IMG/VR virus record: IMGVR_UViG_3300021964_012561
Location: 50,637 to 114,636 of that record
DNA length: 64,000 nucleotides
Reading direction: 5' to 3' (one strand)
From: a virus
The position numbers were made by a program, and so were the translations under genes. Under the pieces are notes generated by a model. It was not told the origin of the DNA and searched no databases. It saw only the letters and a program-made list of their open reading frames with translations. Shown one piece after another: positions 10,862 through 62,774 of this stretch. Within the stretch, counting starts at the first letter, position 1. Every line of letters starts with the position of its first letter.

Positions 10862-11818
10862 ATGATTACTGTTAAAGAAAAAATAAGGCTTATTGAATCA
10901 TGTTTTGGTAAGTCTAGGCTGTCTGCTGACAATAAAAATGCCGTTGTGTTTTGCCCAATTTGTAAATCACAAGGTAAAGATAAATTCAAACTAGCCATTG
11001 GTATAGATAAAGGTATGTATCATTGTTGGGTTTGTGAGTCTAAAGGTAAAAATATAGGTCGTTTAGCTTTAAAATATTCAATTCAAAAGAAATCTGCGAC
11101 TGAACTTTATAGTTATTTTAAAACGGATAAAGATGACTTACAAGTACGAATTGAACAAAAAAAGACTGTTGAATTACCTGAAGACTTTAGACTTATTGCA
11201 ACAAGCAGAGGACATTCAGCAAAGATTGCAAGATCTTACCTTGAAAATAGAGGCTTTAAGGAAAAAGATTTCTACCGGTTCAGAGTTGGAATTAGTGAAA
11301 AATACGGATACAAAAACAGAATAATATTTCCTTCGTTCGACAAAGATCAAAATTTAAATTATTATACAGCAAGAACTCACAACTCAGAACAAAAAAGAAG
11401 ATATCAAAATTCAAAAGTTTCTAGAAAAGACGTAATTTTTCGTGAATTTGACATTGATTTTTCAAAAGAATTAATTTTAACAGAAGGTGTTTTTGATTTA
11501 CTAAATTGTCCTGATAACGCTACATGTATTTTAGGTAGCTGGATTGATAAAAATTATGCAATCTTTAAAAAAATTGTGAAAAATAGTACACCTGTTATTT
11601 TGTGCTTCGATGAAGATGCAAAAGCCAAAACACAAAAAATTGCCAAAATGCTTCATGAGTACTGTGTACCGGTAAAAATAACACAACACAAAGGCAAAGA
11701 TTTTGGCGACATGTCAAAAGAAGAAGTAGATTATTGGCTAAAAGAGGCAAAACCTTTTAATAATGTTGATCGAATATCCTATTTAATAAAGACAATTCAA
11801 TCCGGTTCAGTTTTTTAG
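10862..11818 (+). CDS. DnaG-type DNA primase (zinc finger plus Toprim)
   Basis: The 318-residue protein has an N-terminal CHC2-like zinc-binding motif (Cys31-x2-Cys34 and Cys55-x2-Cys58, with His54 beside it). A Toprim core follows, with ILTEGVFDLL carrying Glu208 and Asp212, and LCFDEDAKA carrying Asp250 and Asp252. These are the zinc and metal-binding elements of bacterial and T4 gp61-type primases, which make RNA primers for lagging-strand synthesis with the replicative helicase. The length is close to T4 gp61 (342 residues). The matching helicase begins at 62782. The start ATG is preceded by weak SD-like sequence. Confidence 0.9.
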   Translation: MITVKEKIRLIESCFGKSRLSADNKNAVVFCPICKSQGKDKFKLAIGIDKGMYHCWVCESKGKNIGRLALKYSIQKKSATELYSYFKTDKDDLQVRIEQKKTVELPEDFRLIATSRGHSAKIARSYLENRGFKEKDFYRFRVGISEKYGYKNRIIFPSFDKDQNLNYYTARTHNSEQKRRYQNSKVSRKDVIFREFDIDFSKELILTEGVFDLLNCPDNATCILGSWIDKNYAIFKKIVKNSTPVILCFDEDAKAKTQKIAKMLHEYCVPVKITQHKGKDFGDMSKEEVDYWLKEAKPFNNVDRISYLIKTIQSGSVF

Positions 11819-30401: not shown

Positions 30402-31328
30402 TTATCTCCTATTGTATGGATATTTAGGCTTGAGTGTGTCAACAGCGAACCTACCACCTCTATTTGGATCTAGTAAGTATTGTAATGTTTTATAAAGCAC
30501 CTCCATTGTCATGCCAATGTCTGCAGTAGCTTCATGCCACGATTCATTGTCAATTTCAAATGCTGTTGCCATCATGCCTAGGCGGCTAGCAAGATAAGGT
30601 TTTCCTTTATACGATAATGCTGTGATACTGTCGATAATGTGTTTGTCTTCTGCATTCATTTCTGACTCATTTTTTTGCACATATTGTAAAACTGCTTTTA
30701 AATAATTATCAATAATTGCGATAGAATCCATTACGGCAATGTCTGGTGCATTTAGTCCACCTCTTTGGTAAAAAAGATTTGTCATTTTTGCGTCAAAAGG
30801 AGAATTGTGGGCCCAAAAAACTATTTTTCCTGTGGGGCTGGCTGTTTTTTGGGCCTGTATGTATTGATTAAACATTTCAGCGCCTTCTGCTTGATTAACA
30901 CGAGGTACACCATCACCACCATAATAATCATTCATGTCTAAAAGCCCTGGAATTGAGTATTTTGGGTCGCCTTGATAAGTTCCAGCATCAAGTTGGGCTT
31001 GTTGCCTTTGAATTTCAGTCTCAGTGTCGGATGTTAGTATAATCTTAACATTAAACATTCCATCGTTGACTGGGGAAGGTATTTGTTCTAATCCATTTGG
31101 TTCATAAGCTATAGCAGCTAACTGAGTAATTTGTACGAAATTAGGAACAGAACCGTCTTTGTTGGGTAAACCTGTCGTTTCTGTATCAAAAAAGACCCAA
31201 TTGTGTTGCGCAAGATCTTTAAGTTTGGAAATCATGGCAGAAAATTCAGGTGGGTAAAAACTAGGGCTAACTGAACGTTCATTTATAAACTTGCGCCACT
31301 CAGTTAAAATTTGCTTCATGTTATTCAT
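30402..31328 (-). CDS. DEDDh 3'-5' exonuclease with leader peptide
   Basis: The 308-residue protein has the DnaQ/epsilon-type exonuclease motifs: ExoI FDTETTG (Asp48, Glu50), ExoII AHNSPFDAK (Asp179) and ExoIII WHEATAD (His265, Asp270). It therefore belongs to the DEDDh class that removes nucleotides from DNA or RNA 3' ends. An extra N-terminal segment, MKQILTEW then KFINERS, precedes the domain and resembles T4 internal-protein leaders (MKTYQEFIAEA); INE followed by Arg at residue 17/18 could be a prohead-protease site. An AAGGAG SD favours the ATG at 31328. It could proofread for the small polymerase at 56784 or be packaged; both are inference. Confidence 0.85.
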   Translation of the reverse strand: MNNMKQILTEWRKFINERSVSPSFYPPEFSAMISKLKDLAQHNWVFFDTETTGLPNKDGSVPNFVQITQLAAIAYEPNGLEQIPSPVNDGMFNVKIILTSDTETEIQRQQAQLDAGTYQGDPKYSIPGLLDMNDYYGGDGVPRVNQAEGAEMFNQYIQAQKTASPTGKIVFWAHNSPFDAKMTNLFYQRGGLNAPDIAVMDSIAIIDNYLKAVLQYVQKNESEMNAEDKHIIDSITALSYKGKPYLASRLGMMATAFEIDNESWHEATADIGMTMEVLYKTLQYLLDPNRGGRFAVDTLKPKYPYNRR

Positions 31329-52586: not shown

Positions 52587-52889
52587 ATGGCTACATCAAG
52601 ATATTCCTTTATAAATAAATTAAGCATTTCTAATAAAATTATTTACGCTACAACTAATCATTCTTTTAGAATTAATAAGGCAATAAATAGCGGTTTTTTA
52701 AGTTTTAATACATATATTTTAAAAGAAGGCGAAAGAATTGATCAAATTGCTTTTAAATTTTACGGAGATTCTCAATATTGGTGGATAATCGCTGCAGCAT
52801 CAGGTATTGGCTGGGGATTACAAATACCTCCAGGAACTATTTTAAGAGTTCCTGAAAGTTTAAATGCAGCCTTAGGTATAAGTAGATGA
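52587..52889 (+). CDS. gp53-like baseplate wedge protein (LysM-type)
   Basis: The 100-residue protein contains YILKEGERIDQIAFKFYGD, then YWWIIAAASG and IPPGTILRVP (about 45-92). This is the LysM-like pattern of phage baseplate proteins such as T4 gp53 and of tail protein X. It links wedge components around the hub. T4 gp53 has 196 residues, so this is a short version. It has an AAAGGA SD and overlaps the next start by four bases (ATGA). Confidence 0.85.
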   Translation: MATSRYSFINKLSISNKIIYATTNHSFRINKAINSGFLSFNTYILKEGERIDQIAFKFYGDSQYWWIIAAASGIGWGLQIPPGTILRVPESLNAALGISR

Positions 52890-55800
52890 ATTTTGATAGT
52901 TTTTATAACTCTAATCCTAACTTAAAGCTTAAGTTATTAAGAGACCTAGTTTTAAAATATAAAGGCTTTGTAACGGGCGCTGAAATAGAAAATGACATAG
53001 CAATTTTTGGTAATCCTGAGGCTATTGAAGCTATTGAGTCGATTAAAAATAATCAAAACTTTCAAGATTTGTTAGCACAATTAAACAAAGACACAGCAGC
53101 GTCTGATAAAGAAAGATACATTTTAGAAAAGTTTACCGGTTCAATGTTAGGTAGTTATTTAACACATGATTTATTAACAAATCCTTCTGTTTTTCCTGAT
53201 TATAATTTAATTAAAGATGATAGCACTGACGTTTTAAAATTTGGCGGTCTAATAGATAGTTTAGCAGTTATATTCGAACCTACAGGAAAAGGAGAAAATT
53301 TTCCTGATGTTTTAATTAAGAAAGATAGAAATAATTATTTTAGTATGAAGCAAATTTGCAATACTGTCGAAATCAATAATGATAAATTATTAAATAAGGT
53401 AATTTTTGAAAATTTAAGTCAAGAAGAAAAAGAAACAATTGTCAATGATTATAACATTTCAATGGGAGCTGTTGATTATTACCCGCAGCCCGCGAAAAAA
53501 ACAAAAAAGTCACCATCATCTAGTAATAATGAAATAGACTTATCAAAAGACGTAGATAATTTTAGATTAAATAATGACGCGTCAGGTTACATTTATAAAA
53601 GAAGAAATAAAAAATGGTATACAAGAAAAGAAAATGGAGAAAGTCAAGAATGGATTGAGTTAACTTCAAATAAATATCAAGCGTCAATAGATAAATTAAA
53701 TGCAGATTATGAAGCACAATTAGTCAATCAAGTTAGTCAGCAAATTGTAAGTACAATACAAAACGAAATACCTCAACAAATTTATAATGTTTCTACTTTT
53801 TCTGATTTTTTAGCTAATAATCCACAAAAAATGCCTTATTACTTGGCAAGAAAGACAAAAGAAATTACTAATTCTGCAATTAATAAAAACATAGAGTCGC
53901 CAGATGAAAATTATCCTAATGTGTCAGCTTTTGTTATTAAAAAAGATGCATACAGTAAAAGCACAAGAAATGATAATTATTTGTCAATTTTTTTCGGTGC
54001 AGTTTCGCAACTTGAATTGTCTAGATGCGTGCCTTATTTATCTTTGACTTTTTACAATAAACGAAGCAAAGGTGAAAAATCTTTATCTAATATGAGCAAT
54101 GTTGGATTCATGAAATTTGAAAAAGATAGCTACGGCAACTTTAATGCAGTTTGGGACAATTTTTCAAATACAAATACTCCTAATTTTATACGAGAAGGTG
54201 AAGAATTAAACTCAGTAGGCTATATGGATTTATTCACAGCACCTCAAACCATGGTTAACCCAGAAATAAACAATAAGCGAAATTCTGGCTTATTTGATAT
54301 TGGAAATAACAATACTGATTACTTAGGCGAACTTGATAATGTTATTGATCCGATGGCACCGTTAATGTCACTTAAGAGCTTTTCTGCTAGCATTAATGGC
54401 GGTGGTGATTTTATGATAACTAATAGAAGGGCAAAATTATCAGTTATTCTTCACGATAGGAGTCGTCTTCAAGAAATTGCCCCTCTTGTATCTTTAAATC
54501 AACTTGCTAGAACTGTGATTAAGGTGGAACACGGATGGTCACACCCAGATGGAGATCCCATTAGATCTAACAATGACATTGGTAAATTTCTAAACTCTTT
54601 AAGAGAAACTCATATCTATCAATTGACCAGTTCAGATTTTTCTTTTAACGGGAATGAAGTAACTATTAATATGACTTTAGATTTTTTTGGATCTACAGAT
54701 TTTAAAACAACTTCTATTGCTTTAGGTAATGAAAAAAAAGATTCAGAACTATCTAACATGCTTATAGAATTAATCGATGACATGGAGAAAAACAACAGAA
54801 TTACATCCACATCATTAGATCCTCAAAATACAACTGGGGTGCCAACACAATATGCGTTATACGGAAAATCAAAGGAAGAAAAGAAAAAAGCAGCAGCAAT
54901 TCATAAACAAATAAAAGTTCTTAGAAATTCAGTAATGTCAGTTGATTTTCTATTGCCTGCAGACAAAATACAAGAATTAAAATCTGAAATTCAGAAAATT
55001 AAAATTGCAACAGAAAATGGTGAATTTATAGAAACTTTTAATCATGCAAGAGTTTTGAAAAAATACTTTGAAATGTTAGGTTTGATAGACGTACCAGAAG
55101 ATATTACAACTTCAGAAATATTTACAGCTGATTTTTTTGAAGGGGAAATAACAGAAAAACTTTTTGAAAAGATTAAAAAAAATGTTGCCGAAAGAATAAT
55201 TGCAAAAATTAATTCTGTTGTAGATACATGTACTACCAGAACAAATGACTCATATGAAAGTGCAAGTTTAACTGAAGATCCATTTAAAAATCCTCTTTGC
55301 TGGGCCTACTCAAAAAACTTAGAAACTAATCAAATTCTAGGTTATCCTGACAATCATGTTTCTTTAGGTAAGTTAATTACTAATTTAATCGCAGTACCGT
55401 TGGCAACAGGAGGAGAAAATAAATATTCAGAAGTTCAAGTTCTTTTTTATCCGATAAATAAATCAGCGGCAGGTGCAAGAAAATATACGACAGCAAGTAT
55501 TCCTATCAATATTCAAGCAATTAAATCAATGATTTATAAAACAGTAAAAGCGGAAGGAGATACAACAACAAGAGGTATTTTTGATTTACTATCTAATTAC
55601 TTTCAAAATGATAATTTAGAAATTTATGAATTAGATAAATTAACAGAAGAAAATATTAAAAAAAGAGAAGAAGAAATTAAAAAAGAAGAAAAATTTGAAG
55701 AAAATGCGTTTAAAAAATATCAAATTTTAAATGGTAAATTACCTGAAACTGATAAACAAAAAACTGCTGCCAAAGAAGGATATGTAAAAACTCGACTTAA

Positions 55801-56743
55801 AAAATACAAAACTCAAACTTTAAAAAACACACTAACTCAAATTTATGAAAATGACGGATTAGATATATCAAGTACAGATTCTTACAGGAAACCGGTTATT
55901 CATCTTGAATTAGAAGTTGCTTCTGCGATAATACCAAATCAAGCAAACGCTTTAAATGATGCGAATCTTTTAGAAATATATAGCGATTACTTTAAAAATC
56001 AATTTGACATAACAGAAGAAAAACTTAATGAAATTAAAGGGACTGATGACTCAAAAAAGATTTTAAAAATTCATGTATATGATGAAAATTCTTCATCTAG
56101 GCCGGCTGAAACATTATTTATGGAAGGAGCAACAGACCCAGCAAGATTTTTATCTGTGGCAGGTGTCTTATCTCACGCCAACGATGATGATAATTTAAAT
56201 GATAGTATACAGACTTTTTCCGAAGCGTCAGAAAAGTTTATTCAAAAAATGAGTTTAAAAGAAATAAAGCAGTATATTAAAAGATCTTTTCCGTCAATAA
56301 CATACGGAAGTCAACAAGCAGTTGTTAAATCAATAAATTTATCAAGTAATACGACAGACGAAATAGTTAATGCTCGTTTAAACGAATCAATATATCAACA
56401 AGAACAAAAAGAAAAAAGTAGCAGTACTAAAGAATTACCAGTTAAAAGAGATATTGAAGAATTTTTAATTCCAACTTCAATAGACGCAACTATCTATGGC
56501 TGTCCTTTTATAACAATGGGACTTAACATTTTTGTTGATTTAAATACAGGCACTGATATTGACAATGTTTATATGGTAGGTGACGTAACACACACAATAG
56601 GGCCGGGTGAATATACAACAAATCTTTCTTTGTTCTTGCCACAAATAGGAACTGTGAAACAAATCAAATCAAAATTAATAAATTCAATTAAATCAATAGA
56701 TAAAGAAAAACTTAAAGAAAATCTAGTAAAAAACACTGAATAA
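52886..56743 (+). CDS. Very large baseplate/tail protein
   Basis: The 1285-residue protein overlaps the gp53-like gene by ATGA. Residues about 360-600 are beta-rich (YLSIFFGAVSQLELSRCVPYLSLTF, GGDFMITNRRAKLSVILHDRS, NGNEVTINMTLDFFGSTDF). A Lys/Glu-rich helical region follows at about 920-985. The C-terminal part is beta-like (CPFITMGLNIFVDLNTGTDIDN, then VTHTIGPGEYTTNLSLFLP), which resembles a spike or hub domain. The position suggests the baseplate hub or a wedge. I cannot name it. It is the last gene of the tail module. Confidence 0.6.
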   Translation: MNFDSFYNSNPNLKLKLLRDLVLKYKGFVTGAEIENDIAIFGNPEAIEAIESIKNNQNFQDLLAQLNKDTAASDKERYILEKFTGSMLGSYLTHDLLTNPSVFPDYNLIKDDSTDVLKFGGLIDSLAVIFEPTGKGENFPDVLIKKDRNNYFSMKQICNTVEINNDKLLNKVIFENLSQEEKETIVNDYNISMGAVDYYPQPAKKTKKSPSSSNNEIDLSKDVDNFRLNNDASGYIYKRRNKKWYTRKENGESQEWIELTSNKYQASIDKLNADYEAQLVNQVSQQIVSTIQNEIPQQIYNVSTFSDFLANNPQKMPYYLARKTKEITNSAINKNIESPDENYPNVSAFVIKKDAYSKSTRNDNYLSIFFGAVSQLELSRCVPYLSLTFYNKRSKGEKSLSNMSNVGFMKFEKDSYGNFNAVWDNFSNTNTPNFIREGEELNSVGYMDLFTAPQTMVNPEINNKRNSGLFDIGNNNTDYLGELDNVIDPMAPLMSLKSFSASINGGGDFMITNRRAKLSVILHDRSRLQEIAPLVSLNQLARTVIKVEHGWSHPDGDPIRSNNDIGKFLNSLRETHIYQLTSSDFSFNGNEVTINMTLDFFGSTDFKTTSIALGNEKKDSELSNMLIELIDDMEKNNRITSTSLDPQNTTGVPTQYALYGKSKEEKKKAAAIHKQIKVLRNSVMSVDFLLPADKIQELKSEIQKIKIATENGEFIETFNHARVLKKYFEMLGLIDVPEDITTSEIFTADFFEGEITEKLFEKIKKNVAERIIAKINSVVDTCTTRTNDSYESASLTEDPFKNPLCWAYSKNLETNQILGYPDNHVSLGKLITNLIAVPLATGGENKYSEVQVLFYPINKSAAGARKYTTASIPINIQAIKSMIYKTVKAEGDTTTRGIFDLLSNYFQNDNLEIYELDKLTEENIKKREEEIKKEEKFEENAFKKYQILNGKLPETDKQKTAAKEGYVKTRLKKYKTQTLKNTLTQIYENDGLDISSTDSYRKPVIHLELEVASAIIPNQANALNDANLLEIYSDYFKNQFDITEEKLNEIKGTDDSKKILKIHVYDENSSSRPAETLFMEGATDPARFLSVAGVLSHANDDDNLNDSIQTFSEASEKFIQKMSLKEIKQYIKRSFPSITYGSQQAVVKSINLSSNTTDEIVNARLNESIYQQEQKEKSSSTKELPVKRDIEEFLIPTSIDATIYGCPFITMGLNIFVDLNTGTDIDNVYMVGDVTHTIGPGEYTTNLSLFLPQIGTVKQIKSKLINSIKSIDKEKLKENLVKNTE

Positions 56744-56783: not shown

Positions 56784-57791
56784 ATGAAAAATTTACTAAT
56801 AAACAAAGATTACAGCGTTACAACTAACTCTTATAAAATAAACTTAAACTCTGAAGATACAATTGATATTAACTATTTAAACACGATAGCTAATCAATTG
56901 TCAATAGAAGAAATAAAAACAGTTAACGACTATTTTGGCAAATTTAAATTTTGCATTAATGCAATAGACGCATCAAAATTCTTATCGAATAAAAATAAAA
57001 AAGATTATCTGTCTTATTTAAAAGAAAAAATTAATAAAATTATTAAATTTGATACTGGCTATTTTGATAAAGCTTTTAAAGCTAGAGAGCAATTGCTAAG
57101 TAATTTAGTACCAGTCGACAATTATGAATTACCAAAGTACAAACATAACAGTGCTACCGGTAGGTCAAAAATTGTAGGCGGTACTAATTTTATGACAATG
57201 AAAAAAGTTAATCGAAAAAATTTAACTTACAAAAACTTGAAAGTCTTTGAAATTGATTTTAACTCATGCGAACCTTATTTTTATCTTCTGTCAAAAAATA
57301 AAATAAGCTCAATAGAAAGCGACATTTATGATACAATTAAAAATAGACTAAATTTAAAAATAACGGATAGAAAAATTTTAAAACAGACAATCTTATCTAT
57401 TCTTTATGGAGCCGGATATGAAACTGTTAAAAGAATTAGCAAGATAGACAAAAAAGGCTATAATGACTTAAAAAATTATTTTGAAATAGACCAGTTTGAA
57501 AAAAAGTTACTTAAGCAAAATAATGAATTAGGCTTTATTTTAAATCATTATAATCGTCCAGTCATCGTCAAAAGCGAACGGTCTATTTTAAACTATTGGG
57601 TACAGTCATCCGTTGCTGATTTTTGCTATCTTGCTTTTAACGATTTTGTTTCAAATAATGAAGTTAATTTTCATGCAATAATTCATGATGCTATTATTTG
57701 CTCTTCAAAAAGAAACATTAACATCCCTCATTTAAAATGTCCTATTAGCGGTTTAAAAATACCTGTTTCATTTTCTTTTTTAAGTTCATAA
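56784..57791 (+). CDS. Miniature family-A DNA polymerase
   Basis: The 335-residue protein keeps the polymerase-domain signatures of DNA polymerase I. These are TGR (125-127) with NFMTM (135-139); motif A Asp158-x4-Glu163 (DFNSCE); O-helix motif B Arg196-x3-Lys200-x3-Leu204-x3-Tyr208-Gly209; the later Arg266-x3-Asn270-x3-Gln274 and Asp279; and motif C His301-Asp302. The spacings within the motifs match E. coli Pol I (D705/E710, R754/K758/F762/Y766, R841/N845/Q849, H881/D882). Leu replaces the F762 position and Ala replaces E883. There is no 3'-5' or 5'-3' exonuclease domain, and the thumb must be very small. It could be a specialised replicative, repair or gap-filling polymerase. The SD is weak. 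Confidence 0.85.
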   Translation: MKNLLINKDYSVTTNSYKINLNSEDTIDINYLNTIANQLSIEEIKTVNDYFGKFKFCINAIDASKFLSNKNKKDYLSYLKEKINKIIKFDTGYFDKAFKAREQLLSNLVPVDNYELPKYKHNSATGRSKIVGGTNFMTMKKVNRKNLTYKNLKVFEIDFNSCEPYFYLLSKNKISSIESDIYDTIKNRLNLKITDRKILKQTILSILYGAGYETVKRISKIDKKGYNDLKNYFEIDQFEKKLLKQNNELGFILNHYNRPVIVKSERSILNYWVQSSVADFCYLAFNDFVSNNEVNFHAIIHDAIICSSKRNINIPHLKCPISGLKIPVSFSFLSS

Positions 57792-57799
57792 TTATTAAC

Positions 57800-59149
57800 A
57801 TGAAAAAGAAATCAATCAAAGAATTAAATTTAAACGTAGAATTAGACCCTTCTTCTTATATTATGAATAAAACATCTGGTTTTATGACAAACGGTGGCTT
57901 TCACTCAAATGCTGATAGCGTAATTGCGCAAAGAATGACCATGGTAAGTGAAGATGATGAAGATTCTGATGAGGAGGAATCAGTGACAGAAGACATACTT
58001 GAATTTAGAGTTTATAGAAATAACAAGTATCAATTATGTGAAACGCTTGAAAGGATTGATGAGGGAATATTGCAAACAATTGCAGACATCGCAAAAGCAG
58101 TTCCTGGTTTAGATCAAATTGTTGGCGACATTGAATTGTATTTTCAAGCAGGAAAAGTAAAAGAAGCTTTTGATGGTTTGTCTAAGATCATAGGTAGTTT
58201 AAAACACGTAGCAGGCCTTTCGGGTTTAGGGATAATAGGTACACAACAACAGTTTAATGAGCTTTTAGAAGCTTTCATGACAGCTTCTGAAGAAGATAAT
58301 TTATTACTTAAAGAAGGTGTAGAAGAATTATTAGAAATTTTAAAACAAATGACAATAACAGCAGCACAAACTTTTGATTCGGTTGTTGCTTTACCTTCTT
58401 TCGCAGCAGCAGGAATTGGAGGTGTAGCAGGTGAAACTATCGCAAACGTTGCTACTTCTTTAGGTACATTTTTACGAGATCAACCTGTCGAACAATTTGT
58501 ATTTAAAACGCTATCTGAAAGAGAAGGAATTGTTTCAAAGGTTGTTGAATTATTTGAAAAAGTCATGTCTTTAGTAACTGGTGGCGGAATGTTAGGTGAA
58601 GCCTTAGGTTATGTTGTTGAAAAAATATCATCCACGGGAGGCCAAATTGTAAAACTTTTTCTTACAAAGCCTTTTGAGTTGTTAAGAAGATTGGGTGACC
58701 TATATAAAGCGTCCTTAGGTGAAACTGTTGAAATTGAACAAGCTGAACCTACTGTGAACGAGCCCCCTCATGCAGGCGCCTCTGAGGTGACTCCTGCTGG
58801 CACACAAGCTTTTACAAAAAGTCAACCAATAGAAAGTGAAACACCTACTAGTACGTTCGAATTAGCTGAATCACATAAACCTTATTCTATTTTATTTCTT
58901 TTAGAAGAATTAGAAAAAAACAAAAAAGATGAAGAATCTTTTGAAGAAATTGATTTAGAGGAGATGAATGTGGCAGCAGCTGTTGGAGGATTTGCAATTC
59001 CTCAGCCCGGCCCTAATCCTAACAAACCAAAATCAAAACAAAAAGATCATCATAGAATGTTTGAAAAGCAAAAAGAAGTTAAAGAACAAATAGAAAGAAT
59101 GAGAATACTTGAAGCTTATCATCAAAAGACATCAAATAAATTAAAATAA
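57800..59149 (+). CDS. Unknown protein with hydrophobic helical centre
   Basis: The 449-residue protein starts 8 bases after the polymerase gene. After an acidic stretch (EDDEDSDEEESV, about 51-62) come helical segments and a glycine/alanine-rich centre (ALPSFAAAGIGGVAGETIAN, about 198-217; GGGMLGEALGYVVEKI, about 261-276). A Pro/Glu-rich linker and a charged C-terminal helix (KQKEVKEQIERMRILEAYHQ) follow. It is not a recognised enzyme. The glycine-rich hydrophobic helices could insert in a membrane or pack in a virion. The promoter for the SSB follows. Confidence 0.5.
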   Translation: MKKKSIKELNLNVELDPSSYIMNKTSGFMTNGGFHSNADSVIAQRMTMVSEDDEDSDEEESVTEDILEFRVYRNNKYQLCETLERIDEGILQTIADIAKAVPGLDQIVGDIELYFQAGKVKEAFDGLSKIIGSLKHVAGLSGLGIIGTQQQFNELLEAFMTASEEDNLLLKEGVEELLEILKQMTITAAQTFDSVVALPSFAAAGIGGVAGETIANVATSLGTFLRDQPVEQFVFKTLSEREGIVSKVVELFEKVMSLVTGGGMLGEALGYVVEKISSTGGQIVKLFLTKPFELLRRLGDLYKASLGETVEIEQAEPTVNEPPHAGASEVTPAGTQAFTKSQPIESETPTSTFELAESHKPYSILFLLEELEKNKKDEESFEEIDLEEMNVAAAVGGFAIPQPGPNPNKPKSKQKDHHRMFEKQKEVKEQIERMRILEAYHQKTSNKLK

Positions 59150-59151
59150 TT

Positions 59152-59244
59152 TTGTAACCTACACACACACAAAGTATAATTGCCTAGCAATTAAAAATTA
59201 AAAATTAAATATTGCACATTAAACATTAAAAACGGAGAAAAATC
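59152..59244 (+). promoter_or_regulatory. SSB promoter and A-rich leader
   Basis: TTGTAA at 59152-59157 and TATAAT at 59175-59180 have the ideal 17-base spacer, which contains a CA repeat (59160-59171). The leader that follows is extremely A/T-rich and low in structure, with repeated AAAAATT units (about 59190-59208), up to the CGGAG SD. T4 gp32 represses its own translation by binding cooperatively to an unstructured leader; this leader is a good candidate for the same control, though that is inference. Confidence 0.65.
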
Positions 59245-60027
59245 ATGGCTATTGATTTTGAAGCTATCAAGCGCAAACTAGAACGACTAAGCGGTAACAA
59301 TAAATCACAAAACGTAATGTGGAAACCACAACCTGACGAAGAATACAATGTTCGTCTTATGAGTTTTCCAGACAATGACGGTCAACCTTTTAAAGAGTTG
59401 ATGTTTTATTACAACATTCCTGGACAGCGAGGTCTTCTTGCACCATCTCAGTTTGGTGAACGAGATCCAGTTCAAGAATTGATTAATAAACTTCGTGATG
59501 AAGGTACAAAAGAAAGCTACGAAATGGCTAAAAAATTGTATCCTAAAATGCGAGTTTATGCTGCTGTGGTTGTAAGAGGTGAAGAAGACAAAGGAGTACA
59601 ATTGTGGGGGTTTGGAAAGCTTGTCTATCAAAAACTTCTTGGAATTATGCTTGATGAAGATTATGGAGATATTACTGATCCTAAATCAGGACGTGATATT
59701 AAAGTAATTTGTTCAAAGCCGCCTGGTCAACAATGGGCAAAAACAGAAATTCTTCCTCGAGGTAGATCAACAAAACTATCTGATGATACATCTCAAGCAA
59801 AAGAATGGATGACAAATATACCTGATACAAAAGGTATTTTTAAGACAAAATCTTACGATGAACTTAGTAAAATCGTAAATGATTGGCTTAATGGTGACAA
59901 TGAAGATGATGAAGGTACTGAAAAATTTGGAAGTAATAATTCAGATTCTGATGATACACCAAAATCAGGTGGTGGAGGAAAATCTTATAATGACTTAGAT
60001 GATGCATTTGCAGATTTAATGTCTTAA
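59245..60027 (+). CDS. Single-stranded DNA-binding protein (gp32-like)
   Basis: The 260-residue protein resembles marine T4-like gp32. The basic N-terminal segment (IKRKLERLSGNNKSQN) corresponds to the cooperativity domain. The OB-fold core contains NVRLMSFPDNDGQPFKELMFYY and VQLWGFGKLVYQKLLGI. The C-terminal tail is acidic (SDSDDTPKSGGGGKSYNDLD then DAFADLMS), as needed for recruiting partners. The zinc-binding Cys/His of T4 gp32 (301 residues) is absent: there is only one Cys, in the C-terminal half of the core (VICSKPPG). It coats ssDNA for the polymerase, helicase and UvsX encoded nearby. Confidence 0.9.
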   Translation: MAIDFEAIKRKLERLSGNNKSQNVMWKPQPDEEYNVRLMSFPDNDGQPFKELMFYYNIPGQRGLLAPSQFGERDPVQELINKLRDEGTKESYEMAKKLYPKMRVYAAVVVRGEEDKGVQLWGFGKLVYQKLLGIMLDEDYGDITDPKSGRDIKVICSKPPGQQWAKTEILPRGRSTKLSDDTSQAKEWMTNIPDTKGIFKTKSYDELSKIVNDWLNGDNEDDEGTEKFGSNNSDSDDTPKSGGGGKSYNDLDDAFADLMS

Positions 60028-60092: not shown

Positions 60093-60578
60093 ATGAAAAT
60101 TTCTAGAAAAAACTTAAACAAACTAATTAGGCGTCATCTTATTAATGAAGGAATACTTGATACAATATCAGGTGCAATTTCAGGTGCAGCTGAAGGCCTC
60201 ACAAATATATTTACACGAGGAGCTGTTAAGTCAACAATGGTAAAAGCTTCATCAGAAGATGCCTATCAGCTTTTTAATGCAATGCAGGGATTAGGAACAA
60301 CTGAATCTGTTGTGAAAGACATTATTAGAAGAAGAGAACTAGAACAATCTTTGGTTGGATTATATGATGAATATAACAATCTTTTAAAGTTTTTTAATGA
60401 TGACTTTTGGGGAAAATATTCTATTAACAGCCTAATGAAGGCATCACAGTGGGATGGAGACTTGATTTCTTGGCTAGAAGGCGACGGCATGGATGAAGAA
60501 GCTAGGCTAGTTAAAGATGCATTAATAAAGGCAGATAAAAAAAGAGAAGAGGTTGACATAACACTTTTTGGCATGTAA
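60093..60578 (+). CDS. Annexin-repeat-like protein with targeting leader
   Basis: The 161-residue protein begins MKISRKNLNKLIRRHLINEG, the shared leader, and INE followed by Gly at residue 19/20 fits the prohead-protease consensus. Residues about 57-105 (AYQLFNAMQGLGTTESVVKD, then LVGLYDEYNNLL) have the AMxGxGT-x-E pattern of annexin repeats, and GDGMDEEARLVKDALI near 130-145 could be a second, degenerate copy. Annexins bind Ca2+ and acidic phospholipids; whether this one does is unknown. It lies between SSB and UvsX and is closed by a terminator. Confidence 0.65.
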   Translation: MKISRKNLNKLIRRHLINEGILDTISGAISGAAEGLTNIFTRGAVKSTMVKASSEDAYQLFNAMQGLGTTESVVKDIIRRRELEQSLVGLYDEYNNLLKFFNDDFWGKYSINSLMKASQWDGDLISWLEGDGMDEEARLVKDALIKADKKREEVDITLFGM

Positions 60579-60676: not shown

Positions 60677-61831
60677 ATGCCAAGTGATGATTTTACTAAA
60701 GACCTAATAAAGTCACTTAATAAAGAAAAAGGTGCAAGAGTTGCTTACAACCTCGCAGTTGATGATAGCCCAACTCACGTTAAAAGGTGGGTCAGTACAG
60801 GTAGTCAAATGTTAGACTATATTTGTGCTAATCAAAAAGGAGGCGGTTTACCTGAGGGTCGTATTGTAGAAATATTTGGACCTCCTTCGATTGGTAAATC
60901 ACATATCGCAACACAATTAGCACGTTCAACTCAACAAATGGGTGGAATTGTTGTATACATAGATACAGAAAATGCAACATCAGTTGATAATCTTCGTGCG
61001 CTAGGCGTCGATGTATCCTCACGTTTTGTATACGTTGATACACATTGTACAGAAGAAGTACTTTCAATTGCAGAAAAAACAATTCTTAAAGCCAAAGCAT
61101 TAGATAAAGATGTTCCTGTTACAATTATATGGGATTCAGTTGCTGCAACATCTCCAAAAGCTGAATTGTTAGGTGATTATGACAAAGAATCTATTGGTCT
61201 TCAAGCTCGTGCAATTTCTAAGGGTATGAGAAAAATAACAGGTGTTATTGGTCAAACTAATTCACTTTTAATTTGTCTTAATCAAATTCGAACTAAAGTT
61301 GGTGTAATGTATGGTGATCCAACAACAACTCCTGGCGGAAAAGCAATTCCATTTCATAGTTCAATTCGAATCAAACTAGGTGCCGGCCAACCAATTAAAG
61401 ATGGTGATGACGTAATTGGCATCAATGTTTCAGCAAAAACAATTAAAAATAAGGTTGCTCCTCCATTCCGAACAGCTAAATTTCAAATTCATTTTGGAAA
61501 AGGAATTGTTGAACACGAAGAGCTATTTGATTTGTTAAGAAAGCATGGTGAAGAGATAATTAATAACAAATCAATTAAGATCGCAGGTAGTGGACAATGG
61601 AAGAATTTTCAGGTTGTTTGTTGTGAGTCAGGCGAAGTACTTATTGAGAAAAAATTTAGAAAAACTGCTTTCAATGAATTAATGAAAGACCCTGATTACA
61701 AACCTTATCTCGATCAATTGGTAGAAAAAGCAATGGTAAAAGTTATGACAACAACTGATGGTATTGATATTGATGCAGAATCTTTATCAGAACTAGAAGC
61801 ATTACAAGCGGAAATGTTTGATGGCGAATAA
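60677..61831 (+). CDS. uvsX: UvsX (RecA-like) recombinase
   Basis: The 384-residue protein matches T4 UvsX (391). Walker A is GPPSIGKS (68-75), a catalytic-type Glu is in YIDTENA (near 98), Walker B is VTIIWDSVAA with Asp153, loop sequences follow (RAISKGMRKITGVIGQ then CLNQIRTKVGVMYGDPTTTPGG). It forms filaments on ssDNA, with gp32-like SSB and the Mre11-Rad50 fusion preparing ends, and drives strand invasion for recombination-dependent replication. The next gene overlaps its 3' end. Confidence 0.95.
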   Translation: MPSDDFTKDLIKSLNKEKGARVAYNLAVDDSPTHVKRWVSTGSQMLDYICANQKGGGLPEGRIVEIFGPPSIGKSHIATQLARSTQQMGGIVVYIDTENATSVDNLRALGVDVSSRFVYVDTHCTEEVLSIAEKTILKAKALDKDVPVTIIWDSVAATSPKAELLGDYDKESIGLQARAISKGMRKITGVIGQTNSLLICLNQIRTKVGVMYGDPTTTPGGKAIPFHSSIRIKLGAGQPIKDGDDVIGINVSAKTIKNKVAPPFRTAKFQIHFGKGIVEHEELFDLLRKHGEEIINNKSIKIAGSGQWKNFQVVCCESGEVLIEKKFRKTAFNELMKDPDYKPYLDQLVEKAMVKVMTTTDGIDIDAESLSELEALQAEMFDGE

Positions 61832-62774
61832 TCGCTGTCTTATTGTAGATGCCTACAATCTTTTTATTAGGCACTATGTTGCAAACCCAACAATGTCAAA
61901 AAACGGTGAACAAATCGGTGGCATTGTTGGGTTTTATAATAATTTAACAAAACTAATTGACAAGACCAATGCAAAAGATGTTTATATTATTTGGGAAGGC
62001 GGTGGTTCTGTCAGAAAAAAGAATGTTTATTCAGATTATAAAAGGCAGTCTCGCCCTGTCAAACTAAACAGGTATTATGATGACATACCTGACACTATGC
62101 AAAATAGAAATTATCAAATTAAAACCTTGATAAAATTTCTTGATAACTTTCCTGTGACGCAGTTATACGTGGAGGGTTCTGAAGCTGATGATGTTATTGG
62201 ATACCTATGCAAATACCGTTTTAAATCCAGACCTAAGGTGATTCTATCCTCAGATCATGATTATTATCAATTGCTCGACAATTTAACAATAATTTATTCA
62301 CCTACTTTAAAGTCTTTTGTTAATGAAAAATTTGTAATAGATAAATTTGGAATTCACCCAAGTAATTTTGCGTTAGCTAAAGCAATTGTAGGTGACAATT
62401 CAGATAATATTCCTGGTGTTCCTGGTGCAGGATTTAAAACGCTGGTAAAAGAATATGGCAATTTATTTCAAAATCCTGATTTTGATTCAAATCGTTTTCA
62501 ATTGTTTATTGAAAATTCAGCTAAAATGGAAAAATCTAAAAAGAAAATATATCGCAGTATTAAAGAAAACGAGGATATGATTGAAAGAAACTTTAAAGTT
62601 ATTAATCTTGACGTCGATAACTTAGCACATTACCAAATTAATAAACTTGAACAAAAACTTGAAAACCATCAAAAAACATATAATAATATAAACATACATA
62701 AATTACTAAATGAAAATGCAATTAACAGTATTGATGTCTACAATACAAAAATAATTTACAATAGACTACTATGA
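61821..62774 (+). CDS. FEN-like 5'-3' exonuclease (T4 RNase H type)
   Basis: I place the start at ATG 61821, one codon inside an in-frame TTG, so it overlaps UvsX by 11 bases. The 317-residue protein has the flap-nuclease residues: CLIVDAYNLF near the start, YVEGSEADDVIGYL (about 110-123), VILSSDHDYYQL and VGDNSDNIPGVPGAG (about 192-206), which includes the metal-binding Asp cluster and helix-hairpin-helix. T4 RNase H (305 residues) removes RNA primers from the lagging strand; this is the likely role. It precedes the helicase gene by 7 bases. Confidence 0.92.
   Translation: MANNRCLIVDAYNLFIRHYVANPTMSKNGEQIGGIVGFYNNLTKLIDKTNAKDVYIIWEGGGSVRKKNVYSDYKRQSRPVKLNRYYDDIPDTMQNRNYQIKTLIKFLDNFPVTQLYVEGSEADDVIGYLCKYRFKSRPKVILSSDHDYYQLLDNLTIIYSPTLKSFVNEKFVIDKFGIHPSNFALAKAIVGDNSDNIPGVPGAGFKTLVKEYGNLFQNPDFDSNRFQLFIENSAKMEKSKKKIYRSIKENEDMIERNFKVINLDVDNLAHYQINKLEQKLENHQKTYNNINIHKLLNENAINSIDVYNTKIIYNRLL

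Follow-up and report, generated by a model that had tools for sequence, protein, structure and literature searches.

Predicted accessory role for a compact, exonuclease-free family-A DNA polymerase in a group of phages with a family-C polymerase

The 64,000-nucleotide stretch analyzed here (the window), which forms the end of a 114.6-kb contig from a marine T4-like phage, encodes at 56784–57791 on the plus strand a 335-aa protein, complete from ATG to stop, that is, judged from profile matches, motifs and predicted fold, a genuine family-A DNA polymerase core without an exonuclease domain (mini-PolA); DNA synthesis itself we infer from these features. A reading of the sequence alone had proposed such an enzyme, and profile, motifs, structural model and fold matches all bear this out. 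We consider it probable that mini-PolA is an accessory Pol I-like enzyme for gap filling or strand extension, served by a separate 5′ nuclease and standing beside a Pol III-like replicase. On a broader reading, to which we give about an even chance, it belongs to a widespread marine clade of T4-related phages that combine a Pol III-type replicase with a split Pol I, the polymerase half of which, at ~335 aa, keeps the full catalytic residues, lacks proofreading, is among the smallest natural family-A polymerases and forms a clade apart from divPolA1.

The motifs of mini-PolA occur in the sequence order TG126-R127, D158-x4-E163, R196-x3-K200-x7-Y208-G209, R266-x3-N270-x3-Q274 and H301-D302, with 38 residues from D158 to R196 and 106 from R196 to D302, exactly the set, order and spacings that the sequence-only reading had given. 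The catalytic residues are D158 (57255–57257), E163, R196, K200, Y208, H301 and D302 (57687–57689). In a sequence alignment that included T7 polymerase, D158/E163/R196/K200/Y208 are equivalent to D705/E710/R754/K758/Y766 of Escherichia coli Pol I, and R266/N270/Q274 and H301/D302 to R841/N845/Q849 and H881/D882, so the DNA-selective steric-gate glutamate (E710) is present as E163. Motif C reads HDA, not HDE: the position of Pol I E883 aligns with Ala, Ser or Asp in the mini-PolA family and with Ser in polymerases of T5-like, Staphylococcus and Microbacterium phages, and this loss may lower the activity of the enzyme. Pol I position 762 is Leu or Ile in the family.

As a size reference we used the PF00476 polymerase domain alone (381 positions) and not the ~600-aa Klenow fragment with which the protein had been compared. 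The core is indeed short, but by ~12% on this yardstick, rather than ~45% by the Klenow measure. No exonuclease domain, 3′–5′ or 5′–3′, was found in the 335 aa, ~125 of which lie N-terminal to TGR. Searches with tblastn against annotated phages and against plasmids, and with phmmer against PDB sequences, returned no match, and mini-PolA is linked to known polymerases by profile or structure methods only. The single sequence matched PF00476 with E = 0.0019 and 17.6 bits, below the Pfam curated cut-off of 34.3, which is a library threshold and not a defining biological feature; the low score reflects sequence divergence. The protein also matched DNA polymerase phrog_17 in PHROGs (2.3e-8). The family profile matched 65 distinct PDB sequences at E ≤ 0.01, with DNA polymerase I, T7 polymerase, Pol nu and Pol theta among the matches listed and a Pol I structure as the best (E = 1.7e-16), so the profile check that had been suggested succeeded for the family, the lone protein staying under the cut-off. 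Because the motif residues are nearly all invariant in 32 homologues and the profile match is of this strength, the motif match goes beyond chance.

The AlphaFold2 model of mini-PolA (pLDDT 93, pTM 0.90) contains the expected palm fold and aligns by VIA-align with human Pol nu (Z 20.3, 251 residues, 3.2 Å) and T7 polymerase (Z 20.6, 249 residues, 3.3 Å); Z ranged from 18.5 to 20.7 across T7, Pol nu, Taq and Bst. The best structural matches were all DNA polymerases, and those in BFVD were phage PolAs. As regards the thumb, two short helices (residues 69–87 and 97–106) precede TGR in this model of mini-PolA. This Pol I/T7-like match indicates that mini-PolA is a predicted thumb–palm–fingers core with no room for an exonuclease domain. 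It thus shares with the Pol I-type domain (Klenow/Bst/Taq, T7 gp5; PF00476) the thumb, palm and fingers, and the same motifs A, B and C and R-x3-N-x3-Q helix in the same sequence, and differs in the lack of a 3′–5′ exonuclease module, the shorter motif spacing, HDA and an identity of 12–19%.

While pattern scans with mini-PolA itself recovered two viral loci only, a search of IMG/VR with the neighboring UvsX as bait yielded the family, with 80 loci. A mini-PolA homologue occupies the same position in every bait locus that extends far enough upstream, and none of the UvsX loci with >5 kb of upstream sequence was without one. Full-length homologues (n = 36) are 334–405 aa long (median ~357), and 32 homologues are 23–55% identical to the mini-PolA of the window. 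Residues invariant in the 32-sequence alignment include G126, R127, N135, D158, E163, R196, K200, Y208, R258, N270, Q274, D279, H301 and D302, which confirms the expected conservation of the key positions. Between close pairs, dN/dS of mini-PolA is 0.10–0.24, indicating purifying selection on the gene. A 28% identical relative with hub and SSB neighbors was also seen in a 108.9-kb contig of a Halobacteriovorax MAG (L129; PBIO01000013.1), which may point to a host or may be a phage contig that ended up in the bin.

The place assigned to mini-PolA between a tail module and SSB/UvsX proved stable: the order baseplate/hub, mini-PolA, SSB, UvsX, 5′–3′ exonuclease and DnaB is kept, as far as the contigs reach, in 39 of the 39 related contigs checked that extend beyond UvsX. 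Within the window, the genes from hub to exonuclease lie on the plus strand. Upstream is a 1,285-aa baseplate/hub-region protein (52886–56743), a conserved neighbor by synteny with no family match. Downstream, a 449-aa protein of no known family (57800–59149) adjoins mini-PolA; only a few of the related loci have it, and its divergence keeps pace with that of mini-PolA. It is followed by a gp32-type single-strand DNA-binding protein (59245–60027; PF08804, 4.9e-10; phrog_1192), a 161-aa protein of no known function that is not conserved in other loci (60093–60578), the UvsX/RecA recombinase (60677–61831; PF00154, 5.3e-65; phrog_97, 3.4e-70) and a stand-alone 5′–3′ exonuclease (61818–62774; PF02739, 6e-26; PF01367, 1e-9), which corresponds to the N-terminal domain of Pol I and is the proposed partner of mini-PolA. 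A promoter of its own, also claimed for mini-PolA, finds no support, as the sole candidate in the 40-bp gap before the gene scores 9/12 and the region contains 11 matches of this kind versus 9.4 ± 3.0 in shuffled sequence. Shine–Dalgarno-like motifs accompany 44 of 72 genes in the window and upstream contig (G000) versus 13 expected, the mini-PolA gene being without one; this frequency counts against a Bacteroidota host, although among isolates it is a Flavobacterium phage that best matches the capsid protein.

At 23–55% identity, mini-PolA diverges far faster than SSB, UvsX, the exonuclease and DnaB. Between the window and four relatives (L024–L026 and L052), SSB–UvsX–exonuclease–DnaB are 92–97% identical in protein versus 39–40% for mini-PolA, with hub, mini-PolA and the 449-aa protein together at 30–40%, and the nucleotide match resumes just upstream of SSB. 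Compared with L025, identity steps at ~59081–59245, the junction of the 449-aa gene and SSB, from barely alignable upstream genes to a downstream block at 86–89% in DNA; this junction is likely a recombination boundary. The disparity implies that mini-PolA is exchangeable independently of the SSB–UvsX–exonuclease–DnaB block, which counts against an obligate tight partnership.

The sequence-only reading knew of no described counterpart in such phages, and here it was mistaken: divPolA1 lies at the same locus (Yutin et al. 2024, PMC11348598). Described from 14 phages including Flavobacterium phage immuto, divPolA1 is a PolA with a truncated thumb and an inactivated exonuclease; its phages also encode a regular polymerase (family A, B or C), and its gene heads a conserved array of replication genes, from which neighborhood its authors inferred a role in replication (PMC11348598). 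We found divPolA1-type relatives also in LR756508 and Microcystis phage Mel-JY01. The gene order of the window recurs in the records of immuto and Mel-JY01 (baseplate, PolA, small ORFs, SSB, RecA, 5′–3′ exonuclease and DnaB); mini-PolA likewise occurs in addition to a regular polymerase, of family C in the overlapping contig G001 and relatives, and the motif C glutamate is absent from both groups. The two differ in length (408–456 aa for divPolA1 versus 334–405 aa) and in that divPolA1 keeps its inactivated exonuclease domain, whereas mini-PolA has none. At the positions of E710, R754 and H881, the divPolA1-type proteins of immuto, Mel-JY01 and LR756508 have His, Tyr and Tyr, compared with Glu, Arg and His in the mini-PolA family, and at 762 these three have Phe instead of Leu or Ile.

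The mini-PolA family profile matched the three divPolA1-type proteins by hhalign with E = 4e-10, and the Mel-JY01 protein with E = 2.6e-12 (in a set of 13). L129 and Mel-JY01 bridge the two groups, L129 being matched from both sides. In a tree in which the divPolA1 side comprised the immuto, Mel-JY01 and LR756508 type, without GOV-bin sequences, the mini-PolA family formed a separate clade of 31 (90/95). Mini-PolA and divPolA1 grouped together against eight other PolAs with support of 96/87, or 79/85 once the very divergent divPolA2 was added, while a branch shared by divPolA1 and T7 polymerase was not rejected by the AU test (p = 0.21). Because the profile scores against divPolA1-type proteins are similar to those against other PolAs, the kinship rests mainly on locus identity and the tree. 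Mini-PolA is therefore better regarded as a sister variant occupying the divPolA1 locus than as a member of divPolA1 in its published sense: an accessory PolA at this locus was known already, and the exonuclease-free version with a canonical active site appears to be new.

The remaining replication genes come partly from G001, an IMG/VR contig that overlaps the contig of the window over 62,706 bp at 99.998% and extends 30 kb beyond; both contigs are fragments, and the assembly may be incomplete. The extension encodes a DnaB-type helicase, ribonucleotide reductase and, ~26 kb beyond the window, a 1,170-aa family-C polymerase with PHP, Pol III alpha, finger and helix-hairpin-helix domains (PF07733, E = 7.5e-54) and the active-site motif PDIDSD (D-x-D). 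Family-C matches were also obtained in G003, G005, G006, G010 and G012, together with mini-PolA in G003, G005, G010 and G012; the 136-kb G004 gave no such match. Neither the phage nor 13 related records yielded a family-B polymerase, so the contrast drawn earlier with a gp43 replicase does not apply to this group, and full-length PolA had no match in the phage. The window further encodes a DnaG-type primase of 318 aa with Zn ribbon and Toprim (10862–11818, plus strand; Pfam matches below the curated cut-offs), located far from the replication block, and a DnaQ-like DEDDh 3′–5′ exonuclease (30402–31328, minus strand; phrog_192, 4e-10) with the motifs FFDTETTG, HNSPFDAKM and HEATADIG. The latter gene is intact and lies on the minus strand amid plus-strand genes. 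It is found in G003, G007 and G008, and the syntenic G002, which has mini-PolA, cleanly lacks it at that place. The exonuclease may be a proofreading subunit of the family-C polymerase that is mobile or optional, and it more likely proofreads this Pol III-type enzyme than mini-PolA; its absence at that place in G002 gives no support to an obligate role as proofreader of mini-PolA.

Together, these genes suggest a model in which mini-PolA would be a catalytically competent, proofreading-less family-A polymerase pared down to thumb, palm and fingers, and would serve the phage as a Pol I-like accessory enzyme. With the 5′–3′ nuclease encoded downstream it would make up a split Pol I of two separate proteins, whether their partnership is physical or functional, for gap filling, replacement of RNA primers and/or extension of 3′ ends in UvsX/SSB-dependent recombination. 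Bulk synthesis would fall to the family-C polymerase with DnaB helicase, the DnaG-type primase and possibly the DnaQ-like exonuclease. By analogy, the gene set resembles the bacterial arrangement, in which Pol III and Pol I divide the labor, except that Pol I is here spread over two genes. A role in gap filling, as put forward earlier, or in repair is plausible. A split family-A precedent was sought in Rhodothermus phage RM378 (Far-T4), which is also T4-related and carries polymerase, 3′–5′ exonuclease and 5′–3′ exonuclease on separate genes, and was rejected, as its polymerase and exonuclease belong to family B (PF00136, PF03104).

Other roles fit part of these data. Were mini-PolA a translesion or mutagenic polymerase, its open, proofreading-less active site would bypass lesions that stall the family-C replicase; the missing exonuclease, the profile matches to Pol nu and Pol theta, the place of Pol nu among the best structural matches and a formamidopyrimidine-DNA glycosylase gene, which shows that the phage handles base damage, are in keeping with this. 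We nevertheless find it doubtful, given Leu or Ile at position 762 (Leu762 is reported to make Taq slower but more accurate; PMC9069017) and a constant position beside SSB, UvsX and the 5′ nuclease that is not specific to bypass. That same position, always upstream of SSB and UvsX, and the replication role inferred for divPolA1 from the same neighborhood (PMC11348598) could instead point to an enzyme dedicated to extending the 3′ ends of UvsX-made D-loops, with no Okazaki role. This seems unlikely, since inheritance apart from the SSB–UvsX block weakens a dedicated pairing and the adjacent 5′ nuclease suggests Pol I-like processing.

It is very unlikely that mini-PolA is the main replicase, proofread in trans by the DnaQ-like exonuclease. 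The lack of PolB and full-length PolA matches and the separate DEDDh exonuclease would suit such a role, but the same phage has a full-length family-C polymerase with an active-site D-x-D, and G002 retains mini-PolA with the exonuclease gene missing from its place; the presence of family-C polymerase, DnaG-type primase and DEDDh exonuclease means that mini-PolA is most probably not the replicase. Just as improbable is a catalytically dead, structural remnant of an ancient PolA retained for DNA binding: although the motif C glutamate is lost and the divPolA1 cousins lack three further catalytic-site residues, D158, E163, R196, K200, Y208, H301 and D302 are invariant over 32 divergent homologues. 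An RNA polymerase or primase of family-A descent is the hardest to credit. There are RNA polymerases built on a co-opted family-A fold, and divPolA2, which occurs in barbaviruses and vibriophages (AUR84708) in a variable gene neighborhood, has been proposed to be one (PMC11348598). Like mini-PolA, divPolA2 is an accessory, exonuclease-less family-A palm protein; it differs in its locus, lacks TGR, has F-D-E at motif C and is distant in the tree. In mini-PolA, the equivalent of the ribonucleotide-excluding E710 is invariant, the phage has its own DnaG-type primase and the best structural matches are DNA polymerases.

The accessory PolA, reported from a handful of phages, thus proves to be a constant feature of a broad clade of phages among environmental contigs, here in a form that keeps the canonical active site yet drops the exonuclease completely. 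A polymerase core this compact (~335 aa), stable with no exonuclease domain attached, could be useful as a tool enzyme, and these phages provide a natural setting in which to test how a viral replisome divides Pol III-like and Pol I-like activities.
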